Assembly: GCA_029268145.1 (NCBI GenBank)
Contig: JAJUHA010000009.1
Span: 1 to 64,000 of the forward strand
Length of the DNA stretch: 64,000 nucleotides
Source of the DNA: Sphingomonadaceae bacterium
GTDB taxonomy: Bacteria; Pseudomonadota; Alphaproteobacteria; Sphingomonadales; Sphingomonadaceae
Direction of reading: 5' to 3'
Each line of letters begins with the position of its first letter. The stretch's first letter is position 1. The position numbers were made by a program, and so were the translations under genes. Below are positions 5,859 to 36,832 of the stretch, in pieces. The notes under the pieces are model-generated. The model did not search any database and was not told where the DNA came from. It saw only the letters and a program-made list of their open reading frames with translations.

Positions 5859-7158
5859 GGGCCTGTCAGTAATTTTGTGCGCGAGGTCATATAGATGGAA
5901 TGGAAAGGACCATCGATATGGCAATCGACAAGGAGTTACTGGATCAGTTGCTGGCAGGGCGTGATCCGCAGGATTTGTTCGCCAGGGACGGGCTGATCGA
6001 CGAGTTGAAGAAGGCGCTTTCGGAGAGGATGCTCGCCGCCGAACTCGACGATCACCTCGAATCGGAAGCCGAAGTGGGGATCGGCAATCGCCGTAACGGC
6101 ACATCGAAGAAGACGATGCTGACCGGCTCGTCGAAAGTGACGCTGGACATTCCACGCGACCGCTCGGGCACGTTCGATCCCAAGCTAATCGCCAAATACC
6201 AACGCCGCTTCCCGGACTTCGACGACAAGATCATCTCGATGTACGCACGCGGCATGACGGTGCGCGAGATCCGGGGGCACCTGGAGGAGCTGTACGGGAT
6301 CGACGTGTCACCGGACCTGATCTCGACGGTGACCGACGCCGTGCTGGAAACGGTCACCGAATGGCAGGGGCGACCGCTGGACGCTTGCTACCCGCTGGTG
6401 TTCTTTGATGCGATCCGGGTGAAGATCCGCGACGAGGGCTTTGTCCGCAACAAGGCAGTGTACATCGCACTCGGCATCCTGCCCGACGGCACCAAGGAAA
6501 TCCTCGGTATCTGGATCGAGCAGACCGAGGGCGCCAAGTTCTGGCTGCGCGTCATGAATGAGCTCAAGAACCGGGGCGTGGCCGACATCCTGATCGCCGT
6601 GGTCGATGGCCTGAAGGGCTTCCCAGACGCGATCAATGCGGTGTTCCCCGAAACGGTCGTGCAAACCTGCATCGTGCATCTGATCCGCAACTCGATGGGC
6701 TTCGCGTCATGGAAGGACCGCAAGGCAATCGCTCAGGCTCTGCGCAGCGTCTATCGCGCCGAGAATGCCGAGACCGGCCTGGCCGCCCTGGAGGCCTTCG
6801 AGGAAGGGCCATGGGGCCAGAAATATCCGGCCATCGCGCAGAGCTGGCGCCGGCATTGGGAGCAGGTGATACCGTTCTTCGCGTTCAGCGCGCCGATCCG
6901 GCGGATCATTTACACTACGAATGCCATCGAGGCGTTGAACTCGAAATTGCGGCGGGCGGTTCGCACCCGCGGACACTTCCCCGGTGACGAGGCAGCGATG
7001 AAGCTGCTATACCTCGTTCTCAATCATGCGGCCGAAGAATGGAAACGGCCGCCGCGCGAGTGGTTCGAGGCCAAAACCCAGTTCGCCATCATCTTCGGCG
7101 ACAGGTTCATGGTCTGATGAACGAAACCGACCTCGCGCACAAAATTACTGACAGGCCC
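5859..7158 (+). mobile_element. IS256-family insertion sequence, intact, 30-bp perfect IRs, 8-bp TSD
   Basis: A 1300-bp element. The left inverted repeat 5859-5888 begins GGGCCTGTCAGTAATTTTGT, and the right one (7129-7158) is its exact complement over all 30 bases. GGCTTGCC is duplicated directly outside at 5851-5858 and 7159-7166, the 8-bp target duplication expected for IS256. It has landed inside orfB of the older IS3 element. The perfect ends and intact transposase show it arrived after, and perhaps long after, the IS3 copy. Confidence 0.95.
5918..7117 (+). CDS. IS256-family mutator-type transposase
   Basis: 399 residues from ATG 5918, chosen over ATG 5900 because AAAGGAC lies just upstream and the family normally begins with a short charged helix ([20 protein letters not shown]). 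Family signatures run in order: [66 protein letters not shown] (first Asp), [17 protein letters not shown] (second Asp), [10 protein letters not shown], and the C-terminal [19 protein letters not shown]. The length and uninterrupted frame agree with an active enzyme. It fills the element between the two inverted repeats. Confidence 0.95.
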
Positions 7159-27100: not shown

Positions 27101-28696
27101 TCAGTTCCGCGGAGTCGGCGCGGTTTCGCAGGTCGGGTTGGTGCCACCGAGGCCGCAGGTCCAGCCATCGTACCAGCGGTCGTCGGCGTTGCGGAACGCG
27201 CCGACATAGGCAGCCGGCGTGACCACGCCCGCCCCGGGGTTGGTGCTGCTCTGCGGCGGGACGGTGGTGGGGGTTGCCCCCGTCTCGTTGGCGCCGGGGA
27301 ACCAGTTGCCGGCACCGGCGACACCGCCGTTCCCGAGCGTGCTGGTGCCATTGAGCACGTTGCGCGTCTCGGTCGCCGGGGTGGTGTTGCTGCCGTTGAG
27401 GATCGCGGTCGTCTGGTCGGCGGTGATGCCCGAGCCGGCGGCCGCCGTGGTCGCGCCGCAGGAGAAGAAGGTGGAGCGGAACACGGGCGGTCCGACCTTG
27501 TCGAGGGTGGTGTCCGCCCCGGAGATGGTGAAGGGGTTGGCGAACTGGACGCAGGCACCCGCCGGATCCTGGTTCAGGACCGTGTTGTAGATGCGGTAGT
27601 CGGTGCCGCCGCGCATCAGCAGCGCCTGGGTCGTGCGCCGGGCGAGGAAGGTGGCGTTGATGAAGGCCGGGTTGGACCGCGGCGTGAAGTTGTCATTGCC
27701 CGAGGTGTCCCCCTCGATCACGCGGTCGCCACCGCCGCTGCGCTGGACCACGAGCACGAACTGGTTGACGCCCTTGTAGCCGAAGTCGGTGTCGAGGCTG
27801 TCGTCGTCGGCGCCGGTCACGACGAGGAAGCGGCCGTTGACGCGCCCGCCGAACCATTCGATGCCGTCGTCCGAGCCGTTGTGCACCTGGATGTTCTCGA
27901 ACACGGTGCCAGCACCGACCCCGCCCAGCGTGATGCCGTTCAGCTCGTTGCCGGCCGAAATCTCGAACCCGGCGTAGCGGACCTGGACGAAGCGGAGCGA
28001 GCCCGAGCTGTCATTGATGTCGGCGCCGCCGTAGAAGGCGTTGGTCGTGCCCTCGATCTGGCTCTCGCACCCGGCCGACCCGCCGGGCACGCCCGCGCCG
28101 ATGCAGCGGTTGATGGGCGCCTGGCCGAGGATCACGACACCACCCCACTGGCCGATCGACGAGGGCGTCGAGGTACCGAGCACATTCGCCCGGCTGGTGA
28201 ACACGATGGGGCGCGTGGACGTGCCGTTGGCGATCAGCTGCGAGCCGCGGTTGACGAGAAGGAAGTCGGCACCCGAGGAGCCGAAGATCACCACGCCCGG
28301 CTCGATCGCCAGCGTCGCCGCCTGGCCGCCGGGCCTGGTGCCGTCGCCGCCGGTGTCGACACCGACATCGACCCGCCCGGAGATCGAGTAGAGCGTGCCC
28401 CGGCGGAACGGGAGCAGCAGGTTGCCAGTGATGACGCCCGAGATCTGGCAGTTCCGCAGATCGGCGATGAGACCGACGTTGGTCGTGCCCGTCGGGCAGT
28501 CCGGATCAGGCCCCGGCGTCGGGGTCGGCGTCGGCGGAGGGGTTGGGGTCGGAGGCGGAGTCGGGGTCGGCGTGGGCTGGATGATCACGCCGTCGCCCGG
28601 CGAGGCCACGTCGACCGCGCCGGAGCAGGCCGCGAGCGCGAGCGCCGAGCCGATGAGAAGCAGGGAGCGGAGTTGCGAGCCGCTGGCGTTCGACAT
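27101..28696 (-). CDS. secreted beta-helix-like lipoprotein with PT-repeat linker
   Basis: 531 residues. The N-terminus carries a lipoprotein signal (LLLIGSALALAACSG), then a disordered linker of PTPTPTPP-type repeats at about 41-65 and CPTGTTN. The remainder has short strands and glycines typical of a right-handed beta-helix or similar repeat fold: TLAIEPGVVIFGSSGADFLL, RGSQLIANGTSTRPIVFTSR, GQWGGVVILGQAPINR, VQVRYAGFEISAGNELNGIT and SDDGIEWFGGRVNGRFLVVT. Several cysteines could pair in the oxidising exterior. I recognise no named family with certainty. Proximity to the receptor suggests a surface or periplasmic substrate-binding partner (inference). Confidence 0.75.
   Translation of the reverse strand: MSNASGSQLRSLLLIGSALALAACSGAVDVASPGDGVIIQPTPTPTPPPTPTPPPTPTPTPGPDPDCPTGTTNVGLIADLRNCQISGVITGNLLLPFRRGTLYSISGRVDVGVDTGGDGTRPGGQAATLAIEPGVVIFGSSGADFLLVNRGSQLIANGTSTRPIVFTSRANVLGTSTPSSIGQWGGVVILGQAPINRCIGAGVPGGSAGCESQIEGTTNAFYGGADINDSSGSLRFVQVRYAGFEISAGNELNGITLGGVGAGTVFENIQVHNGSDDGIEWFGGRVNGRFLVVTGADDDSLDTDFGYKGVNQFVLVVQRSGGGDRVIEGDTSGNDNFTPRSNPAFINATFLARRTTQALLMRGGTDYRIYNTVLNQDPAGACVQFANPFTISGADTTLDKVGPPVFRSTFFSCGATTAAAGSGITADQTTAILNGSNTTPATETRNVLNGTSTLGNGGVAGAGNWFPGANETGATPTTVPPQSSTNPGAGVVTPAAYVGAFRNADDRWYDGWTCGLGGTNPTCETAPTPRN
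28511..28577 (-). repeat. low-complexity GGCGTCGGGGTC-type repeat encoding the Pro-Thr linker
   Basis: Imperfect tandem copies of GTCGGGGTCGGCGT and GGAGGGGTTGGGGTCGGAGG encode the PTPTPTPP linker of the lipoprotein. The units are in frame and variable in number, so length polymorphism between strains is plausible. Confidence 0.75.
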
Positions 28697-28851
28697 GGGA
28701 GTCCCCTCTTTGCCGGTTGGCAGGAATTTGGCGCGCCCGACCGGCGCCGCGACGCCTCCGGACAGGGGCGCCCTAGCCCTGCGGGGTGACGCTTGGATGA
28801 CCGGACGGTTACGGATTGTTTGCAGCGGCGGCGGCCCGCGATGGATCGCCC

Positions 28852-31236
28852 TCAGGCTTCGAGGAGCGGAAGGCCGGCGAGCAGCGCTTCCTCGCTGACG
28901 CCGGGCACCGACTCGCGGCCAGCCTCGAGGAGCACCGGGATGGCGAGCGGGCTGGCGCGGGCGAGCGGGACGTGAAGGAGGTGGGCGCGGGCCCGGGCGA
29001 GGAGCGATTCGAGGCGGGCGAGGTCCGTGATCCGCGCCGATGCCTCGGCCCAGGCGGTCTCGAGGAGGAGATGGTCGGGCTCGTGGCGGCGGAGAACGTC
29101 GAAGATGAGGTCGGTCGAGACGGTGAGCGCGCGCGCCCGCTTCGGCCGGCCCGGCTCGCCGCGCGGAACGAGGCCCGAGACGATGGCGACATCGCGGAAG
29201 GCGCGGCGGAGGAAGGGCGTCTGCTCGATCCAGTCGCGCAGCTCCTCGCCGACCACCCCGGCGGCAAGGAGCCCGGCCGGATCGCCGATCTCGCGGCGCC
29301 CCCACAGCGCGAGCGCATAGTCGGTCGCGACGAAGCCGACGGGCATGAGGCCGGCCCTCTCCATGCGGCGGGTGAGGAGAAGCCCGAGCGCCTGATGCGC
29401 GTTCCGCCCCTCGAAGCCGTAGAGGAGGAGGTGGTGGAGGCCGTCGCGCGGGAAGGTCTCGGCGAGCAGGCGGTCGGGCGGCGGAAGGACCGAGACCTCG
29501 CGCTGGAGTGCCAGCCACTCGCGCACATCGGCGGGCATCCGCGACCAGGTGGCGGGATCGGCCAGCATGGCCCGCACGCGGTCGGCGAGGTTGGTCGCCA
29601 GCGGCATGCGGCCACCGACATAGGTGGGGATGGCGGGCGGACGGCGGGACAGCCGGGTGTGGAGCGAATCCTCGCCATGGCCGATGACCTCGAGCGTCAG
29701 GCCGGCGAAGGCGAAGCTGTCGCCCGTGGCAAGCTGGCTTGCGAACCATTCCTCGATGGTGCCGAGCGCGCGGCCACGGCCGAGGAGGACCGTGACGGCG
29801 GGAGCCTCGACGATGACTCCGGCGTTGGCGCGGTGCTGGGTGGCAAGGCGGGGGTGGGCAAGGCGCCAGCGGCCATCGGGCCCCTGCGCGATGCGGCGGA
29901 AGCGGTCGTAGACCCGCAGCGCATAGGCGCCAGTTGCGGCGAGATCGAGCGTACGGTCGAACTGGCGCCGGTCGATCCCGGCATAGGGCGCCGCCGAACG
30001 GACCTCGGCGAACAGCGCGTCGGCGCGGAAGGGAGCGCTCGCCGCCATCCCGACGATGTGCTGGGCGAGCACGTCGAGCCCGCCGGCGCGCGGCGGGTCG
30101 GTCTCGAGGTCGTGCGCGTCGACCGCCTCGACGGCCGCGAGCGCTTCCAGATACTCGAAGCGGTTGCCTGGCACGATCACGGCGCTCGAGGGCTCCTCGA
30201 GCCGGTGGTTGGCGCGGCCGGTGCGCTGGAGGAGGCGCGCCGCCCCCTTGGGCGCGCCCATCTGGACGACGAGGTCGACATTGCCCCAGTCCAGCCCGAG
30301 GTCGAGGCTGGAGGTGGCCACCACGGCGCGCAGCCGCCCCTCGGCGAGCGCGGCCTCGGTCTTCGCCCGGGCTTCGGGGGCGAGCGAGCCATGGTGCAGA
30401 CCGATGGGAAGCGCATGGCGGTTCTCGGCCCAGAGGTCGCGGAAGACCAGTTCGGCGACCGCGCGGGTGTTGACGAACACGATCGTCTGGCGGTGCGCCT
30501 CGATGAGGCGGATGACCTCGGCCGCGGCGTGGCGGCCGTTGTGGCCCGACCAGGGGATTCGCCCGTCGGGCACGAGGATGCGGATGTCGGGCCGCGCGCC
30601 GGGCTCGCCGATGAGGATGCGCGCGGTTGCGCCGGTGGGGACGAGCCAGCGGGCGAGCGCCGGCGGGTCGGCGACGGTCGCCGAGAGGCCGACGCGGCGC
30701 ATCGCCGGAGCCAGGGCCTGGAGCCGGGCCGCAGCGAGCGCGAGGAGATCGCCCCGCTTGGTCGGGGCAAGCGCATGGATCTCGTCGACGATGAGGGTGT
30801 CGAGGCCGGCGAAGAGCATCGGCGCCTCGGGCCAGGTGAGGAGGAGGGAGAGGCTCTCGGGCGTGGTGAGCAGGATGTCGGGCGGGTCGCGGCGCTGGCG
30901 GGCCTTGCGCTCGGCCGGCGTGTCGCCCGTGCGGCTCTCGACGCGCAGGGAAAGGCCCATGCCCGCGATCGGGCCGGTCAGGTTGCGCGCGATGTCGGCG
31001 GCCAGCGCCTTCAAGGGCGAGACATAGACGGCGCGCAGCCGCGGCGGGGCCCCGCGCGGCGCGCGGGCGGCAGCCTCGAGCACGGGCAGGAAGCCGGCGA
31101 GCGTCTTGCCCGCCCCGGTGGGTGCGACGAGAAGGGCATGGGCGCCGGCCCGCGCGGCCTCGACCATGGCCGTCTGGTGGGCGCGGACGGCCCAGCCGCG
31201 CGCCGCGAACCAGGCCTGGACTGGAGGTGCGAGCAT
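28852..31236 (-). CDS. Lhr-type DEXH-box helicase, ligase-associated subfamily
   Basis: 794 residues. Superfamily 2 helicase motifs run in order: Q-like RAHQTAMVEAARAG, motif I APTGAGKTLAGFLP, Ia YVSPLKALAADIARNL, II VDEIHAL, III SATVADP, IV TIVFVNTRAVAELVF, V ATSSLDLGLDWGNVDLVVQM, VI LLQRTGRANHRL. A winged-helix and Lhr C-terminal region follow (IEEWFASQLATGDSFAFAGL, MPADVREWLALQ). The size and order match the ligase-associated DNA damage response helicases, usually encoded with an ATP-dependent DNA ligase and an exonuclease-like protein. Neither partner is adjacent here. The product probably acts in the cytoplasm on nucleic-acid repair intermediates. Confidence 0.9.
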   Translation of the reverse strand: MLAPPVQAWFAARGWAVRAHQTAMVEAARAGAHALLVAPTGAGKTLAGFLPVLEAAARAPRGAPPRLRAVYVSPLKALAADIARNLTGPIAGMGLSLRVESRTGDTPAERKARQRRDPPDILLTTPESLSLLLTWPEAPMLFAGLDTLIVDEIHALAPTKRGDLLALAAARLQALAPAMRRVGLSATVADPPALARWLVPTGATARILIGEPGARPDIRILVPDGRIPWSGHNGRHAAAEVIRLIEAHRQTIVFVNTRAVAELVFRDLWAENRHALPIGLHHGSLAPEARAKTEAALAEGRLRAVVATSSLDLGLDWGNVDLVVQMGAPKGAARLLQRTGRANHRLEEPSSAVIVPGNRFEYLEALAAVEAVDAHDLETDPPRAGGLDVLAQHIVGMAASAPFRADALFAEVRSAAPYAGIDRRQFDRTLDLAATGAYALRVYDRFRRIAQGPDGRWRLAHPRLATQHRANAGVIVEAPAVTVLLGRGRALGTIEEWFASQLATGDSFAFAGLTLEVIGHGEDSLHTRLSRRPPAIPTYVGGRMPLATNLADRVRAMLADPATWSRMPADVREWLALQREVSVLPPPDRLLAETFPRDGLHHLLLYGFEGRNAHQALGLLLTRRMERAGLMPVGFVATDYALALWGRREIGDPAGLLAAGVVGEELRDWIEQTPFLRRAFRDVAIVSGLVPRGEPGRPKRARALTVSTDLIFDVLRRHEPDHLLLETAWAEASARITDLARLESLLARARAHLLHVPLARASPLAIPVLLEAGRESVPGVSEEALLAGLPLLEA

Positions 31237-31358: not shown

Positions 31359-33521
31359 ATGGCGCCGGAATCGGACATCGAGCAGGCGCTGGCCGAGGCC
31401 CTGCGGCGTGGCGAACCCTATGTCGGGCCGGAGGAGGCGCCGGCCGACTGGGTGGGCGTGCGCGGCGCCTTCCTGCGCGCGCTGTTGCTCGAACGGGTGG
31501 CCAATCCCCTGCCCGGCGCCGCCATCCTCCTTGCCCGGGTGCGGGTGACGGGCGGCCTCGATCTCTCGGGGCTCGGCCGCACCGAAGCACCGCTGCCGCC
31601 CTTCCGCCTCACCGAGTGCCGCGTGGAGGACGGGCTCGACCTGTCCGATTCGGCGGTGGCTCGGCTCGACCTGCGCGGTTGCCGGATCGACCGGCCGAAC
31701 CTCCGGAACCTGGTCTGCGGCTTCGACCTCAACCTCTCGCTCACGATCGTCGAGGGCGAGCTTCTGCTCATGAACGCGCGGATCGGCGGCAACCTGGTGC
31801 TGAACGGCGCCTATCTCGACGCCCGCCCCGGCGACCCGAACAGCGACGATCCGCACGCCCGCGCTGCGACTGCGCCGTTCCGCGCCCTTTCCGCCGACGG
31901 CATCGACGTGCGCGGCGACGTCTTCCTCCGCCCTGTCGCCGGCGCGCGGAGCTTCATCGCCCGCGGCACGGTCGCCCTGCCGGGCGCCTCGATCCGCGGC
32001 GACATCTCCATGGGCGGCGCCCTGCTCGAGGGGCCCTGCGCAGCACCCGACGGCGAGGGGAGGCGGCACACCCTGGGCCCGGCGCTGGTGCTCGACCGGG
32101 CCGAGATCGGCGGCGACCTCAATGCGGCGGCGCAGGGGGGGCGCCACCTCGACACCCTGGGGCGCATCAGCCTTGCCGGCACGCGCATCCGGGGCGATGC
32201 CATCTTCTCGGGCGCCGATCTCGGCCATGATCAGGGCGTGGCGGTCAATGGCGACGGCGCGGACATCGGCCAGTCGCTCACCTTCGACAGCCTGCCTGCC
32301 GAGGCGGGCGCGGGCGATCCGCCCGGAGTCACCCGCTGCCTGGTGCGCGGCAGCATCCGCCTGATCGACGCCAAGGTCGGCTCGCAGCTCTCGTTCCGCG
32401 GAACCCGGCTCGAAGCCCTGGGCGAGGCCATCCTTGGCGGTGGCGCGCGCATCGAGGGCGGCCTCTTTCTGGTGCCCTTCCACGAGGTACCGGACGGTGC
32501 CGCGCCGGTGGCGACCGAGGTCAGGGGTGCGCTCGGCTTTCCCAACGCAACGCTTGGCTTCTGCCGCCTGCAGGGGTGCGTGCTGCAGCCGGGGCTGGCG
32601 CGCGAGGAGCCGTTCGCGCCCATCGCCGTCTTCGAGGGTGCGACCATCCGCACCGCGCTCCTCGTCAGCCTGGCGCCGGGCAGCCGCGGCCTCTTCAGCC
32701 TGGAGAGCGCCCATGTCGGCAACCTCCCCAACCTCGAGCTCACGCGCTGGGGCGAGCCGCCGACGACCGACTCCCAAGGCACATGGTCAGGCGTCAGGCT
32801 CGAGCTCGACGAGCTGACCTACGATCGCGGCGATGTCGCCCTCCCCGAAGGCGCGGCAGGCGGGCGGCGGGACCGCAGCGAGGACAGCCGGGTGGTGCTG
32901 GCCTGGCTCGCCCGGCAGTATGTGAACGGCGCGCCCGCGCCCGCCACCTTCCGCCCGCAGCCCTATGAGCAGGCGGCCCGGCTGCTCCGCGCCAAGGGCG
33001 ACCGCTATGGCGCCGGCCGGGTCGGCTCGACCAAGCGGCAGATGCAGCGGCGCTGCGTCGACCGCGGCCTCGCCGGGCTCGGCAACTGGCTGTTCCACCT
33101 GTTCTTCGACTATGGCTATTCGCCAGCGCGCACCCTGCTGTGGGGGCTCGCCTTTCTCGCGCTTGGCCTTGCCGGCGTCGAGGCGCTGAAGCGGACCGGC
33201 GGCCTCGTCGATGCCGAGCCGGTGCTCAGCTTCGCCATCCGCCCGGCGCCGGCGGCGGACATCGCGGGCGGCGGCGCCCCGCTCGTCGGCGAGCCGGTGC
33301 GCGCCGAGCAGCCCTGCACGGTCGACACGCTGGGCTACACGCTCGATGCCTTCCTGCCGCTCGTCGACCTCGGCTTCGACCGCCGCTGCGTGGTGGCCCC
33401 GCCGGCGCAGTTCGCCGGCGCGCGCGGCGCGACCTGGGCGCTGCTGCTCTACAGTCTCATCGGGCTCGTCTTCGTGCCGATCGCGGCGCTGACCTTCGCC
33501 GGCGTGCTCCGCAGCGACTGA
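31359..33521 (+). CDS. repeat-scaffold membrane-anchored protein of unknown function
   Basis: 720 residues with a start supported by an upstream purine-rich CAGGGGGAG. The first 480 residues hold about ten irregular units of the form x-x-I-x-G-D-L-x-L-x-x-A-x-I, for example VRVTGGLDLSGLG, CRVEDGLDLSDSAV, ARIGGNLVLNGAYLD, ASIRGDISMGGALL, AEIGGDLNAAAQGG and ARIEGGLFLVP. These suggest a solenoid of beta-strands related to pentapeptide or bactofilin-like repeats. A conserved-looking module then reads TFRPQPYEQAARLLRAKGDR with a basic helix, and two membrane segments sit at about 588-610 and 690-715. The combination recalls proteins vaguely annotated 'membrane-associated oxidoreductase', but no redox motif is visible. 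The function is unknown. Confidence 0.8.
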   Translation: MAPESDIEQALAEALRRGEPYVGPEEAPADWVGVRGAFLRALLLERVANPLPGAAILLARVRVTGGLDLSGLGRTEAPLPPFRLTECRVEDGLDLSDSAVARLDLRGCRIDRPNLRNLVCGFDLNLSLTIVEGELLLMNARIGGNLVLNGAYLDARPGDPNSDDPHARAATAPFRALSADGIDVRGDVFLRPVAGARSFIARGTVALPGASIRGDISMGGALLEGPCAAPDGEGRRHTLGPALVLDRAEIGGDLNAAAQGGRHLDTLGRISLAGTRIRGDAIFSGADLGHDQGVAVNGDGADIGQSLTFDSLPAEAGAGDPPGVTRCLVRGSIRLIDAKVGSQLSFRGTRLEALGEAILGGGARIEGGLFLVPFHEVPDGAAPVATEVRGALGFPNATLGFCRLQGCVLQPGLAREEPFAPIAVFEGATIRTALLVSLAPGSRGLFSLESAHVGNLPNLELTRWGEPPTTDSQGTWSGVRLELDELTYDRGDVALPEGAAGGRRDRSEDSRVVLAWLARQYVNGAPAPATFRPQPYEQAARLLRAKGDRYGAGRVGSTKRQMQRRCVDRGLAGLGNWLFHLFFDYGYSPARTLLWGLAFLALGLAGVEALKRTGGLVDAEPVLSFAIRPAPAADIAGGGAPLVGEPVRAEQPCTVDTLGYTLDAFLPLVDLGFDRRCVVAPPAQFAGARGATWALLLYSLIGLVFVPIAALTFAGVLRSD

Positions 33522-33586: not shown

Positions 33587-35722
33587 ATGCGCACAGGTCG
33601 GCAGGTTTCCGGGTTCCTCCTGGCCCTCGCGGGAGCGGAGGCCGCGCTGGCAGCGGAAGGCATGTGGATGCCAGGCCAGGCGCCGGCGCTCTCCGCCCGG
33701 CTCCGCGAGGCGGGGCTTGCCCTGCCGCCCGAGCGGCTCGCCGACCTCGCCGCCGCGCCCATGGGAGCGATCGCCTCGCTCGGCGGCTGCTCGGCAAGCT
33801 TCGTCTCGCCCCAGGGGCTCGTTGCCACCAACCATCACTGCGTGCTGGGCTCGATCCAGTTCAACGCCCGCGAGGGGCGGAACCTCATCCGCGACGGTTT
33901 CCTCGCCCGTACCCGCTCGGAGGAGCTTCCGGCGGCGCCGGGCACGCGCGTCTACGTGATCGAGGCGCTCGACGACGTGACGGCGGCGATGATGACCGGA
34001 GTCACGCCGCGGCTGACGGGCGCGGCGCGGGTCCGCGCGCTCGAGGCCAACCGCAAGGCGATCATCGCCGCCTGCGAGGCCGAGCCGGGGCGGCGCTGCG
34101 AGGTCAGGAGCTATTTCGGCGGCGCCCAATACTGGCGGCAGCGGATGCTGGAGATCCGCGACGTGCGGCTCGTGCATGCGCCGGCCGGAAGCGTCGGCAA
34201 CTTCGGCGGCGAGGTGGACAACTGGCAATGGCCCCGCCACACCGGGGACTACAGCTTCTACCGCGCCTATGTGGCGCCCGATGGCCGGCCGGCGGCCTAT
34301 GCGGCAGAGAATGTGCCCTATGTGCCACGCGCCCACCTGAAGCTTGCGAATGACGATCTGAAGGACGGCGATTTCGTGCTCATCGCCGGCTTTCCCGGCG
34401 TGACCGAGCGGTTCCGCACCGCCGCCGAGACCGAAGGCTGGTACGGGCGCATCTATCCGCGCCAGCAGCGGCTGCTGGCCGACTATTCGGCGCTGATCGC
34501 CCGCGAGACGCAGGGCGAAGCCGACCGGATCGCCTATGCCTCGATCAAGGCGGGCGCGGACAATTATGCCAAGAAGATCGCCGGGCAGATGGCGGTAGCC
34601 CGGCAGTTCGACCTCGTGGGGCGCAAGCGCGCCAGCGATGCGCGGCTGGGGGAGTGGGCGGCGCGGCCGGAGCACCGGCGGACCCACGCGCTCGCCATCT
34701 CCAACTATGACTCGCTCGCGGCCGAGGCGCTGGCCGCCGACGAGGCGCGCCTCGTCAACCAGACGCTCAACCGGGCCCAGCTTCTGAACGCCGCGCGCAC
34801 GCTCTACCGCTGGGCCAACGAGCGGATGAAGCCCGATTCCGAGCGCGAGCCGGGCTTCCAGGAGCGGGACCGGCAGTCGGTCATTGACCGCCTGAGCGTC
34901 ATCGACCGGCGCTTCGTGGCGCGGATCGACCGGGCGATCCTCGCCCAGGCGCTCGCCGAGGTCGCGACGCTTCCGCCGGCGCAGCGCAACACGGCACTGG
35001 AAGCGCGGATCGCCGAGATCGGCCTCGATCGGCTCTACGCCGGCACGCGCCTCACCGACCAGGCGGAGCGGCTGGCCTGGCTCGACCGTCCGGTCGCCGA
35101 CTTCATCGCTTCCGACGATCCCTTCATCCAGCTTGCGGTTGCGGCCTATGCGCAGGACATGGCGGCAGAAGCGCGGCGCAAGGATCTCGAAGGGAGGCTC
35201 GATGCCGCACGGGTGGCGTGGATGGGGGCGGTCCGCGCCCATGCCGCGGCCGAAGGGCGCCTGCTCTACCCGGACGCCAACGGATCGCTGCGCTTCACCT
35301 TCGGGCATGTCCGCGGCCGGCCGACCCGCGACGGCGAGGCCTGGACCGCCTTCACGACGGCAGGCGGCATCCTCGCGAAGGACACGGGCAAGGATCCCTT
35401 CGACAGCCCCCCTGCCCTGCTGGCCGCTCTCCGGGAGGGGAAGTGGGGGCCGCTCGGCTCGGCGTCGCTCGGCACGCTCCCGGTCAACTTCCTCTCGACC
35501 ACCGACATCACCAACGGCAATTCCGGCTCGGCGGTGCTGAACGCGAAGGGCGAGCTGGTGGGGCTGGCCTTCGACGGCACGCTCGAGGGGATGCTCTCAG
35601 ACTGGTGGTTCGACGAGGCGACCACGCGCACCATCGCGGTCGACCAGCGCTACATGCGCTTCGTGATGGAGCGGGTGGACGGCGCGGCCGGGCTGCTCGC
35701 CGAAATGGGCGTCGCGCCCTAG
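33587..35722 (+). CDS. S46-family dipeptidyl-peptidase
   Basis: 711 residues with signal peptide (ending EAALAAEG), so periplasmic. The mature enzyme starts EGMWMPGQ, close to the EGMW start typical of S46 peptidases. The catalytic triad is visible: His in GLVATNHHCVLGSIQ, Asp in NWQWPRHTGDYSFYRAYV, Ser in TNGNSGSAVLNAKGEL. S46 enzymes (DPP7/DPP11) remove dipeptides from peptide N-termini. After the Ser, the pocket segment reads LAFDGT with Gly, resembling DPP7-type enzymes for hydrophobic P1 rather than the Arg of DPP11; this specificity is inferred. The stop shares CTAG with the convergent permease gene. Confidence 0.93.
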   Translation: MRTGRQVSGFLLALAGAEAALAAEGMWMPGQAPALSARLREAGLALPPERLADLAAAPMGAIASLGGCSASFVSPQGLVATNHHCVLGSIQFNAREGRNLIRDGFLARTRSEELPAAPGTRVYVIEALDDVTAAMMTGVTPRLTGAARVRALEANRKAIIAACEAEPGRRCEVRSYFGGAQYWRQRMLEIRDVRLVHAPAGSVGNFGGEVDNWQWPRHTGDYSFYRAYVAPDGRPAAYAAENVPYVPRAHLKLANDDLKDGDFVLIAGFPGVTERFRTAAETEGWYGRIYPRQQRLLADYSALIARETQGEADRIAYASIKAGADNYAKKIAGQMAVARQFDLVGRKRASDARLGEWAARPEHRRTHALAISNYDSLAAEALAADEARLVNQTLNRAQLLNAARTLYRWANERMKPDSEREPGFQERDRQSVIDRLSVIDRRFVARIDRAILAQALAEVATLPPAQRNTALEARIAEIGLDRLYAGTRLTDQAERLAWLDRPVADFIASDDPFIQLAVAAYAQDMAAEARRKDLEGRLDAARVAWMGAVRAHAAAEGRLLYPDANGSLRFTFGHVRGRPTRDGEAWTAFTTAGGILAKDTGKDPFDSPPALLAALREGKWGPLGSASLGTLPVNFLSTTDITNGNSGSAVLNAKGELVGLAFDGTLEGMLSDWWFDEATTRTIAVDQRYMRFVMERVDGAAGLLAEMGVAP

Positions 35723-36774
35723 GCGCGGCGGCTGCGGGCGAGGATGACGCGCTCGCGGATGAGGGCAACGCCGACCACCGTCATTGGCACGGCGAGGATG
35801 ACGCCGAGCGGCCCCATGAGCACGCCGAAGGCGATGAGCGAGAAGATGGTGAGCGCCGGCGGCAGGTCGGCGAGGCGGCTCTGGGCGATCGGCGAGACCA
35901 GATTGCCCTGGATCTGCTGCACGGCGATGATGACGACGATGGTCCAGATGCCGGTCTCGAGGCTCATGGAAAAGCCGATGAGGATGGCAGGGATCGCGAC
36001 GACGAAGGTGCCGAGATAGGGCACGAACTCGCACAGGCCGGCGACGAGGCCGATGGCGGGCGCGCCGGGAATGCCGACCAGTGAGAGCCCGGTGCCCGTC
36101 GCCAGCCCGACGAAGGCCATGCCCACCCCCTGGGCGCGGAGCCAGGCGTGGAGCGAGCCCACGATCCGCCTCCACGAGCGCAGGGCCCGCAGCCGGTCCT
36201 CCGGCGGCACGAGCGCCAGGAGCGAGCGGGTGTAGAGGCGCGGCTGGGCGGCGAAGTAGATCCCGCCGACCAGGATGATCGCGACCATCGAGACGACGGT
36301 GCCGATGTTGGAAAGCACGGTCTGGGCCAGCTCGATCACGCGGGCGCCGCTCGGCATCAGCTGGGGCACTTCGGCAAGCACCCGGCGGCCCGGCTCGCTC
36401 GCCATCAGCATGGACTTGGCCGCCTCGAGCGCGGCGGGGAGCGACTGGAGCAGGAGCTGGAACTGGGTCGCCATGGTCGCCCCGAACAGCGAGAAGGCGG
36501 CAATCACGAAGGCGAGCGGGAGGACGACGGCGAGCAGGAAGGCGAGCCAGAAGGGCAGGTGCAGGCGGCGGCGGAGGCTTCCCGCGAAGCCCGCGACCAT
36601 CATGGCGACGAGCCCGCAGGCGAAGACGATGAGGAGAAGCTCGGAGAGCTGCCAGACGAGGACTGCCGTGCCGACCGCGGCCATGAAGAGGAGGCCGTTG
36701 CGGAACACGCGCGTCGCCTCCCCGGCCCGAGCGGGGCGCTCGACGATGGGCGGCGGGCGGAGCGCCTCGTTCAT
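35719..36774 (-). CDS. AI-2E family (PerM-like) transporter
   Basis: 351 residues from ATG 36774, chosen because the protein then starts MNEALRPPP as a typical short cytoplasmic lead. About eight membrane segments are visible: GLLFMAAVGTAVLVWQLSEL, LLIVFACGLVAMMVAGFAG, LAFLLAVVLPLAFVIAAFSL, a long periplasmic helix region, GTVVSMVAIILVGGIYFAAQ, MAFVGLATGTGLSLVGIPGA, FVPYLGTFVVAIPAILIGFS and LTIFSLIAFGVLMGPLGVIL. The P-Y-L-G and Q-G-N-x-V-x-P (IQGNLVSPI) motifs are family hallmarks. Members export diverse solutes or ions; AI-2 transport is proven for few, so the substrate is open. Confidence 0.88.
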   Translation of the reverse strand: MNEALRPPPIVERPARAGEATRVFRNGLLFMAAVGTAVLVWQLSELLLIVFACGLVAMMVAGFAGSLRRRLHLPFWLAFLLAVVLPLAFVIAAFSLFGATMATQFQLLLQSLPAALEAAKSMLMASEPGRRVLAEVPQLMPSGARVIELAQTVLSNIGTVVSMVAIILVGGIYFAAQPRLYTRSLLALVPPEDRLRALRSWRRIVGSLHAWLRAQGVGMAFVGLATGTGLSLVGIPGAPAIGLVAGLCEFVPYLGTFVVAIPAILIGFSMSLETGIWTIVVIIAVQQIQGNLVSPIAQSRLADLPPALTIFSLIAFGVLMGPLGVILAVPMTVVGVALIRERVILARSRRA

Positions 36775-36794
36775 GGTGCCGCCATGCCCTGAAT

Positions 36795-36832
36795 CGGCGC
36801 GGGTGGGAAGGCCGGCCACCCCACCCGCGCCG
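36795..36832 (-). terminator. 12-bp hairpin after PEP-CTERM gene 2
   Basis: CGGCGCGGGTGG (36795-36806) pairs exactly with 36821-36832 around a 14-nt loop that itself contains GGCCGGCC. It begins 8 bp past the stop on the minus strand, upstream of the permease start. No U-run follows. Confidence 0.6.

Follow-up and report, generated by a model that had tools for sequence, protein, structure and literature searches.

The gene studied here, P0001, occupies positions 31359..33521 on the plus strand of the window, a 64,000-nucleotide stretch of DNA from a Sphingomonadaceae bacterium (contig JAJUHA010000009.1). In our best reading its product of 720 amino acids (aa) is a diverged relative of the pentapeptide-repeat potassium (K+) channels with two transmembrane helices (2TM), in which the selectivity filter has been exchanged. 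With a probability of about 0.6 we regard the protein as a membrane pore that is gated by a beta-solenoid and lacks classical K+ selectivity. The computational analysis supports the architecture of the protein, a profile link to these channels, the loss of a K+ filter from all family members examined, and invariant residues before the first transmembrane helix (TM1), in the pore loop and in the second transmembrane helix (TM2).

The C-terminal 215 residues were folded alone with AlphaFold2 using 57 sequences (predicted local distance difference test, pLDDT, 89.9). The model showed helices at module residues 5-13, 29-40, 44-61, 66-81, 84-107 (TM1), 152-160 and 183-209 (TM2), with strands within the loop; adding 505 gives the numbering of the protein. 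An earlier note on this DNA, made from the sequence alone, had placed two membrane segments behind the solenoid, preceded by a basic module with the motif PQPYEQ, and both were recovered. The PQPYEQ module starts at residue 533 and belongs to a basic helical hairpin which, together with a helix at residues 572-586, comprises residues 506-588 (32874..33122, plus strand, as all features of the gene). This stretch was defined by the model and the profile comparison, is the best-conserved part of the protein and looked like a tetratricopeptide repeat in weak profile matches to the Protein Data Bank (PDB; best E 0.029). A GYGYRP-type motif (DYGYSP in P0001; residues 584-589, 33108..33125) leads into TM1 (residues 589-612, 33123..33194), which was predicted in the models of both the whole protein and the module. 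It is followed by a putative pore loop (residues 655-674, 33321..33380) and by TM2 (residues 688-714, 33420..33500), which is based on AlphaFold2, hydropathy and alignment column counts; the strongest hydropathy windows all fell into TM2. The two helices probably do not form a plain membrane anchor, a point that the earlier note had missed: taken together with the preceding hairpin and the short helix in their loop, they resemble pentapeptide-repeat K+ channels at the profile level and pore-loop channels in the predicted fold.

A Foldseek search with the module returned 11 chains, among them Kir6.2, Kir6.1, the IP3 receptor and TRPM3. When 103 chains chosen by Foldseek were realigned using VIA, HalA, the channel effector of the Hailong system (PDB 9nyi), ranked first (Z 8.8, root-mean-square deviation 3.2, 149 residues, residues 1-210 of the model) and Kir6.2 second (Z 8.3, 103 residues). 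Pore-loop channels of the Kir, KirBac, KCa and TRP type made up 48 of the 50 entries listed, down to Z 6.1, although many of these entries repeat few proteins. The predicted model agrees with the fold TM1, re-entrant helix, TM2 (Z 6.1-8.8), whereas Foldseek alone was not significant. HalA is the nearest solved fold among the 103 chains, with the hairpin and both membrane helices aligned; it differs in sequence (13% identity in a comparison with the C-terminal module only) and was absent among the matches listed in the PDB profile searches. The pore domains of Kir/KirBac and TRP channels share the arrangement of TM1, pore helix and TM2 (Z 6.1-8.3, 86-106 residues) but are unlike P0001 in their filter, cytosolic domains and sequence. 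PDB entry 9ma5, a 'transmembrane protein' released on 2026-03-18, reached Z 7.8 over 91 residues of the module and might provide another precedent.

Since such Z values can, according to a caution given with VIA, reflect merely a common arrangement of helices, independent evidence was sought in sequence profiles. A profile of the family module was run over 398 genomes of the phylum and gave matches in 18, in five of them to pentapeptide-repeat proteins (E 2.4e-4 to 6.7e-4). Four of these five possess the helical hairpin region, the motif CGYGExP, TM1, the canonical filter TTLGYGD and TM2, and they exceed the Pfam cut-offs for Pentapeptide and Ion_trans_2; in the fifth (L169) the frame stops before the pore loop. 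Using hhalign, the modules of 57 family members (the 58-member set described below minus the truncated L023) matched the four channels with a probability of 90.3% (E 1.5e-6), seven such channels with 93.1% (E 3.3e-7) and 14 more diverse channels, haloarchaeal and cyanobacterial ones included, with 96.0% (E 4.7e-9, score 61.5). The last match extends over 157 columns, starting in the PQPYEQ helix and reaching TM2. The signal rises as the channel set diversifies, as homology predicts. As a control for the 14-channel match, 60 alignments were permuted by shuffling columns in blocks of eight, which preserves local composition and hydrophobic stretches; their scores did not exceed 29.3 and their probabilities 23.1%. 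For the four-channel match (real score 45.4), 30 column-permuted alignments reached at most 20.0, 30 block-permuted ones at most 21.2 and one reversed alignment 13.2. In the PDB, the seven-channel profile retrieved Shaker (E 1.3e-9) and KirBac, and a profile combining ten family members with the seven channels likewise retrieved K+ channels (best E 2.9e-4). On these profile comparisons, homology of the hairpin and 2TM module to the lineage of pentapeptide-repeat K+ channels is well supported.

The seven channels (PF00805 and PF07885; L170-L173 and L175-L177) are about 330 aa long; the more distant ones are haloarchaeal (L205-L209, L212) and cyanobacterial (L211). They share with P0001 a solenoid of the pentapeptide type, the helical hairpin, the motif GYG-x-x-P, TM1, a pore-loop helix and a TM2 with an aligned glycine. 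In P0001 the solenoid is far longer and PF07885 is not called, so that by the sequence definition of Ion_trans_2 the protein is not a member of this family. A further K+-channel relative, from Haloarcula (L210), is annotated as two neighbouring genes, one for the pentapeptide region and one for the channel region.

The channels and the P0001 family differ at the filter. All 14 comparison channels carry T-[LI]-[GS]-[YF]-G-[DN], whereas a K+-type filter of the TVGYGD type after TM1 was found in none of the 57 family members. In the joint MAFFT alignment the segment YTLDAFLPLV--DLG of P0001 faces YSVVTFTTLGYGD, the longer stretch YTLDAFLPLV--DLGFD stands opposite YSVVTFTTLGYGDF, and G702 in TM2 faces the TM2 glycine of the channels. 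According to the module model and this alignment, a helix around Y660, D663 and P667 is followed by LVDLGFD in the position of the K+ filter TTLGYGD; the family consensus at this place reads D-x3-P-[LIV]-[VI]-D-[LF]-G-Q. The residues G586, D663, P667 and G702 are invariant in all 57 members and lie outside the patterns used to collect the family, and Y660 occurs in 56 of them. At position 670, 41 members have D, six S, five G, four N and one V; at position 673, Q is found in 49 members and F in P0001. These tallies were taken from alignment columns; a regular-expression tally after D...P struck other places in some rows and was not used. Because D663, P667 and G702 are invariant and positions 670 and 673 mostly conserved, the loop looks maintained, and judged from the sequences the exchange looks like a different, maintained motif and not like decay.

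We also considered the GYGYRP-type motif itself as a selectivity filter and rejected it, since the equivalent CGYGExP precedes TM1 in genuine channels, whose filter lies elsewhere. Position 584 of this motif is G in 42 of 57 members and is not constant. Weak matches to MthK (E 2.4 and above, and E 6.8 and above in another PDB profile search) covered TVGYGYRP and TM1 and were treated as a decoy, because GYGYRP resembles a K+ filter yet aligns with CGYGExP.

The solenoid in front of this module is preceded by an N-terminal part with two predicted helices (residues 1-53, 31359..31517). AlphaFold2 modelled the whole protein with confidence from 58 aligned members (mean pLDDT 89.2, predicted template modelling score 0.82) and placed the strands of the solenoid at about residues 54-492 (31518..32834), arranged in coils like those of pentapeptide repeats. 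This agrees with the long beta-solenoid that the earlier note had expected and for which it had proposed a structure prediction. The xxIxGDLxLxxAxI repeat, which it had estimated at about ten units, is above chance; fewer units were found by pattern, although the predicted solenoid covers about 440 residues. In comparison with 2000 shuffles of residues 1-490, five strict matches stood against a shuffled mean of 0.03 (maximum 2) and seven core matches against 0.70 (maximum 4); a third, looser pattern gave eight matches, six of them in residues 1-490, and was not clearly above the shuffles (mean 2.04, maximum 8). Foldseek with the whole model found no chain at E<=0.001. Realignment of 480 chains with VIA, which for the whole model informs on the solenoid only, placed it among the beta-helices (tailspikes, epimerases, NosD and HetL) with Z 15-20 among the matches listed. 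The pentapeptide repeat proteins HetL (Z 16.6) and MfpA (E 0.012 in a PDB profile search) belong to the same solenoid class but are without a membrane module of the P0001 type. The sole Pfam match of P0001 at E<=1 was Pentapeptide_3 with 21.9 bits, below the cut-off of 27, so the protein stays under the Pfam threshold for pentapeptide-repeat membership (PF13576/PF00805); 46 of the 58 family members match Pentapeptide_3 at E 0.01.

Residues 540-590 have a net charge of +7 and the loop at 613-687 one of -5; under the positive-inside rule this suggests an N-in/C-in hairpin and a cytoplasmic solenoid. A signal peptide was not seen at the N-terminus by eye (no predictor was run). In the proposed mechanism the beta-solenoid would form an arm in the cytoplasm that is linked by the basic helical hairpin to the 2TM pore-loop domain. 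By analogy with 2TM channels the module would most likely be tetrameric in the inner membrane, and TM2 and the loop 655-674 would line the conduction path. A ligand, a partner or a physical signal may act on the solenoid, and the hairpin as coupling piece would relay this change to TM1 and TM2 and thereby open or close the conduit.

To collect the family, one genome each of 84,980 species was scanned for stretches containing PQPYEQ[LA]A or LxWL..QY, patterns that had been derived from five relatives. The scan yielded 539 stretches, of which 416 were relatives by tblastn; the best 80 of these 416 were kept and relatives from other searches were added. As PQPYEQ-type patterns were demanded, the conservation of PQPYEQ is partly selected, whereas the residues of the pore loop and TM2 are free of this bias. 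From 66 candidates of 500-760 aa, 51 were aligned with six others and P0001, giving the 58-member set; the 15 omitted ones were assumed to be mostly near copies. By title, 48 of the best 80 relatives are Actinomycetota, and the remaining relatives include Pseudomonadota, Cyanobacteriota, Planctomycetota, Bacteroidota and Myxococcota. Matches were found in 7 of 119 genomes of the own taxonomic family (the own genome included), in 9 of 296 of the order, with a profile that also responds to solenoids alone, and in 13 of 289 of the class, at least two of which look like other proteins; the order and class matches include solenoid-only ones or apparent other proteins (L153, L154). These low fractions point to a sporadic presence. 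In a phylogenetic tree P0001 groups with L017, four further members of its own taxonomic family and one Caulobacter member (SH-aLRT support 98), which does not indicate a recent import from Actinomycetota. Thirteen of the 14 filter-bearing rows stand apart from all others (SH-aLRT 99); the remaining one, L211, sits on a long branch whose position is uncertain, and the group of all 14 has a support of 9. Plasmid records with relatives are mostly from Streptomyces (5 of 6 and 22 of 35).

None of the 58 members matched NCBIfam or PADLOC at E 0.01, and in Pfam only Pentapeptide_3 recurs, with one weak match each to Bactofilin and Wzy_C_2. No paper on this family was found by title or abstract start in the open-licence part of PubMed Central, a scope outside which subscription papers and most preprints lie; PMC11237479 names two relevant terms, in unrelated places. 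In four Rhodobacteraceae loci (L018, L044, L075, L090) two family genes stand in tandem, the second encoding 641 aa in all four, with 132 residues between the YEQLA and YGHKP-type motifs compared with 48 in two actinomycete members; the tandem is possibly a heteromeric pair. In the actinomycete loci L061 (9782-11695) and L067 (9785-11701) two separate reading frames make up the family gene.

The reading frame of P0001 starts with ATG, has GGGGGAGA upstream and ends with a stop codon after 720 codons; its own genome (2.66 Mb, 82 contigs) contains no second copy in a search at E<=10. The earlier note had described the gene as standing alone between a helicase and a peptidase, and both neighbours were confirmed. 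Upstream, on the minus strand, lies a ligase-associated DEXH helicase (TIGR04121, E 2.9e-298) with a likely start at 31236, divergent from P0001 with 122 bases between them. Downstream, on the same strand, an S46 peptidase (PF10459, E 1.5e-206) has its likely start at 33587, 65 bases past P0001, and an AI-2E transporter follows on the opposite strand. The listed frames of helicase and peptidase overlap P0001 solely via upstream starts, which we take to be unused. The nearest relative, L017 from an uncultured Sphingomonadaceae genome, has 75.7% aa identity to P0001, with 0.169 nonsynonymous (dN) and 0.72 synonymous (dS) substitutions per site, which indicates purifying selection. The hairpin (residues 506-588) is conserved best (90% identity, dN 0.053, dS 0.361) and the N-terminal 53 residues least (53% identity). 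The neighbours in L017 are the same in kind and order, with 85.8% (helicase), 85.1% (S46 peptidase) and 84.4% (AI-2E transporter) identity, so P0001 evolves faster than its neighbours yet keeps its place.

Neighbours across the family were chosen from six-frame open reading frames (ORFs) by length and G+C content at third codon positions, and some of them are not real genes; the repeat loci L020, L021, L024 and L042 were removed before counting. No neighbour recurs widely across lineages. The largest neighbour clusters look by eye like generic transporter and dehydrogenase genes, and rhodanese, the commonest neighbour by Pfam (4 of 122), agrees with a cluster of four Rhodobacteraceae loci. The profile search of the PQPYEQ module and its gene neighbours that the earlier note had proposed produced the link to the pentapeptide-repeat K+ channels but no constant neighbour. 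AI-2E-type transporter genes lie beside or one gene from the family gene in the window (35719-36819, minus strand), in L017 (7952-9007) and in the Dactylosporangium loci L027, L052 and L053; such genes are common and this may be chance. Beyond the helicase the window encodes a 531-aa predicted lipoprotein (27101-28696, minus strand). It combines an LAAC lipobox with a long proline-threonine linker and a C-terminal domain of large size; apart from a weak lipoprotein signal, Pfam gave no match at E<=1 to the frame 27101-28846. In L011, L012 and L015 from the own taxonomic family a GGDEF protein (L011 10351-11562) and a protein of 734 aa fall into clusters with ORFs located close to the family genes of other relatives; neither was seen beside P0001. 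A search at E<=0.001 detected an Ion_trans_2 channel in 43 of 59 genomes but none in the own genome (G000).

Several results weigh against a channel origin of the module. Foldseek alone gave a best E of 4.8, and Z values of 6-9 are modest for a helical domain and were obtained over chains preselected by Foldseek. For the family module without its hairpin, the probability of the four-channel match dropped to 37% (E 3.6e-4, score 28.9), which means that much of the sequence signal comes from the hairpin, the GYG-P motif and TM1, while the pore loop aligns weakest. Plain K+ channels without the hairpin (19 Ion_trans_2 segments) gave hhalign probabilities of 1.0-1.6%, also with global or looser settings; taken alone, this result would have led us to drop the channel idea. 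Ion_trans_2 was called neither in P0001 at E 1 nor in the 58 members at E 0.01. An unrelated two-helix membrane protein, whose likeness to channels reflects a common helix arrangement, would fit these results. It is improbable, however, in view of the 96% hhalign match with permuted controls at no more than half its score, the prevalence of pore-loop channels among the VIA entries listed and the identical order of parts from the solenoid through TM2. The fold could also have come from pentapeptide K+ channels in a protein that has lost conduction and now holds the solenoid at the membrane as an anchored scaffold or sensor. Solenoids are well suited to bind other molecules as scaffolds, the K+ filter is missing in all 57 members, and P667 sits about at the filter-region threonine of the channels. 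We consider such a retired channel unlikely but worth keeping in mind, since the invariant D663, P667 and G702 and the prevailing residues at positions 670 and 673 speak for a maintained loop, as do dN 0.115 and dS 0.53 of the pore loop against L017.

The top rank of HalA raises a further alternative, an effector pore that opens upon infection by a phage and halts the cell as in the Hailong system, and the sporadic distribution would suit it. PMC13275509 describes HalA as an ion channel that poly-dA blocks. For P0001 such a role is quite improbable. A nucleotidyltransferase like HalB was absent among the neighbours examined, no constant partner was found, and L017 retains the same helicase, peptidase and AI-2E neighbours. 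At E 1e-20, among 122 nearest-neighbour ORFs of 100-700 aa, 18 PADLOC models were hit by one protein each, mostly PD-T4-6, compared with four models and one or two proteins each among 101 ORFs six places away; PD-T4-6 is a kinase model, so the 18 models were perhaps hit by the same protein, and defence models are not enriched at the nearest neighbours. A defence system was rejected as the leading idea on this neighbour comparison and on the lack of PADLOC matches among the members. A viral or phage origin was dismissed too: neither phage records nor viral contigs (the latter in a scan reaching close relatives only) yielded a match, and a viral fold library gave nothing significant. Weak matches arose to three PHROGs families: four members matched a tail-fibre family, which we take to reflect beta-helix likeness, and the other two families were matched by one member each. 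Some Streptomyces relatives, which by sequence belong to the same family as P0001, are annotated as 'oxidoreductase' or 'membrane-associated oxidoreductase', and a table in PMC6302529 lists a protein under the latter name (SCO6657, 05225 in S. lividans), possibly but not necessarily of this family, beside the pentose-phosphate genes 6658-6662. This annotation is all that speaks for an enzyme, which is hardly credible here and was rejected: Pfam and NCBIfam searches of the 58 members at E 0.01 revealed no cofactor-binding or catalytic domain, the lone enzyme-type signal being the Wzy_C_2 match of one member (E 0.008), and phmmer found no convincing relative in the PDB (best E 1.2; none at E 1 in another search). 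In agreement with the earlier note, no catalytic motif and no confident match to a characterised enzyme family emerged. Its verdict of no clear function can be revised in part, since the architecture has a likely, channel-like kind of function even though the K+ filter is absent.

Our preferred reading of P0001 as a solenoid-gated pore turns a family without useful annotation, or with the doubtful name 'oxidoreductase', into a concrete hypothesis of a gated pore with a new filter. More tentatively, and with somewhat less than even odds, Actinomycetota, Pseudomonadota, Cyanobacteriota, Planctomycetota and Bacteroidota may share a large pore family, unnamed in Pfam, NCBIfam and PADLOC, in which a conserved loop of a new kind, with its own selectivity, has taken the place of the K+ filter and a very long solenoid in the cytoplasm does the gating. 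The invariant residues D663, P667 and G702 are immediate targets. If the protein conducts, it would show how bacteria re-tool the K+ channel scaffold, and it would represent, beside HalA, a further 2TM channel that is steered by a cytosolic reader domain.

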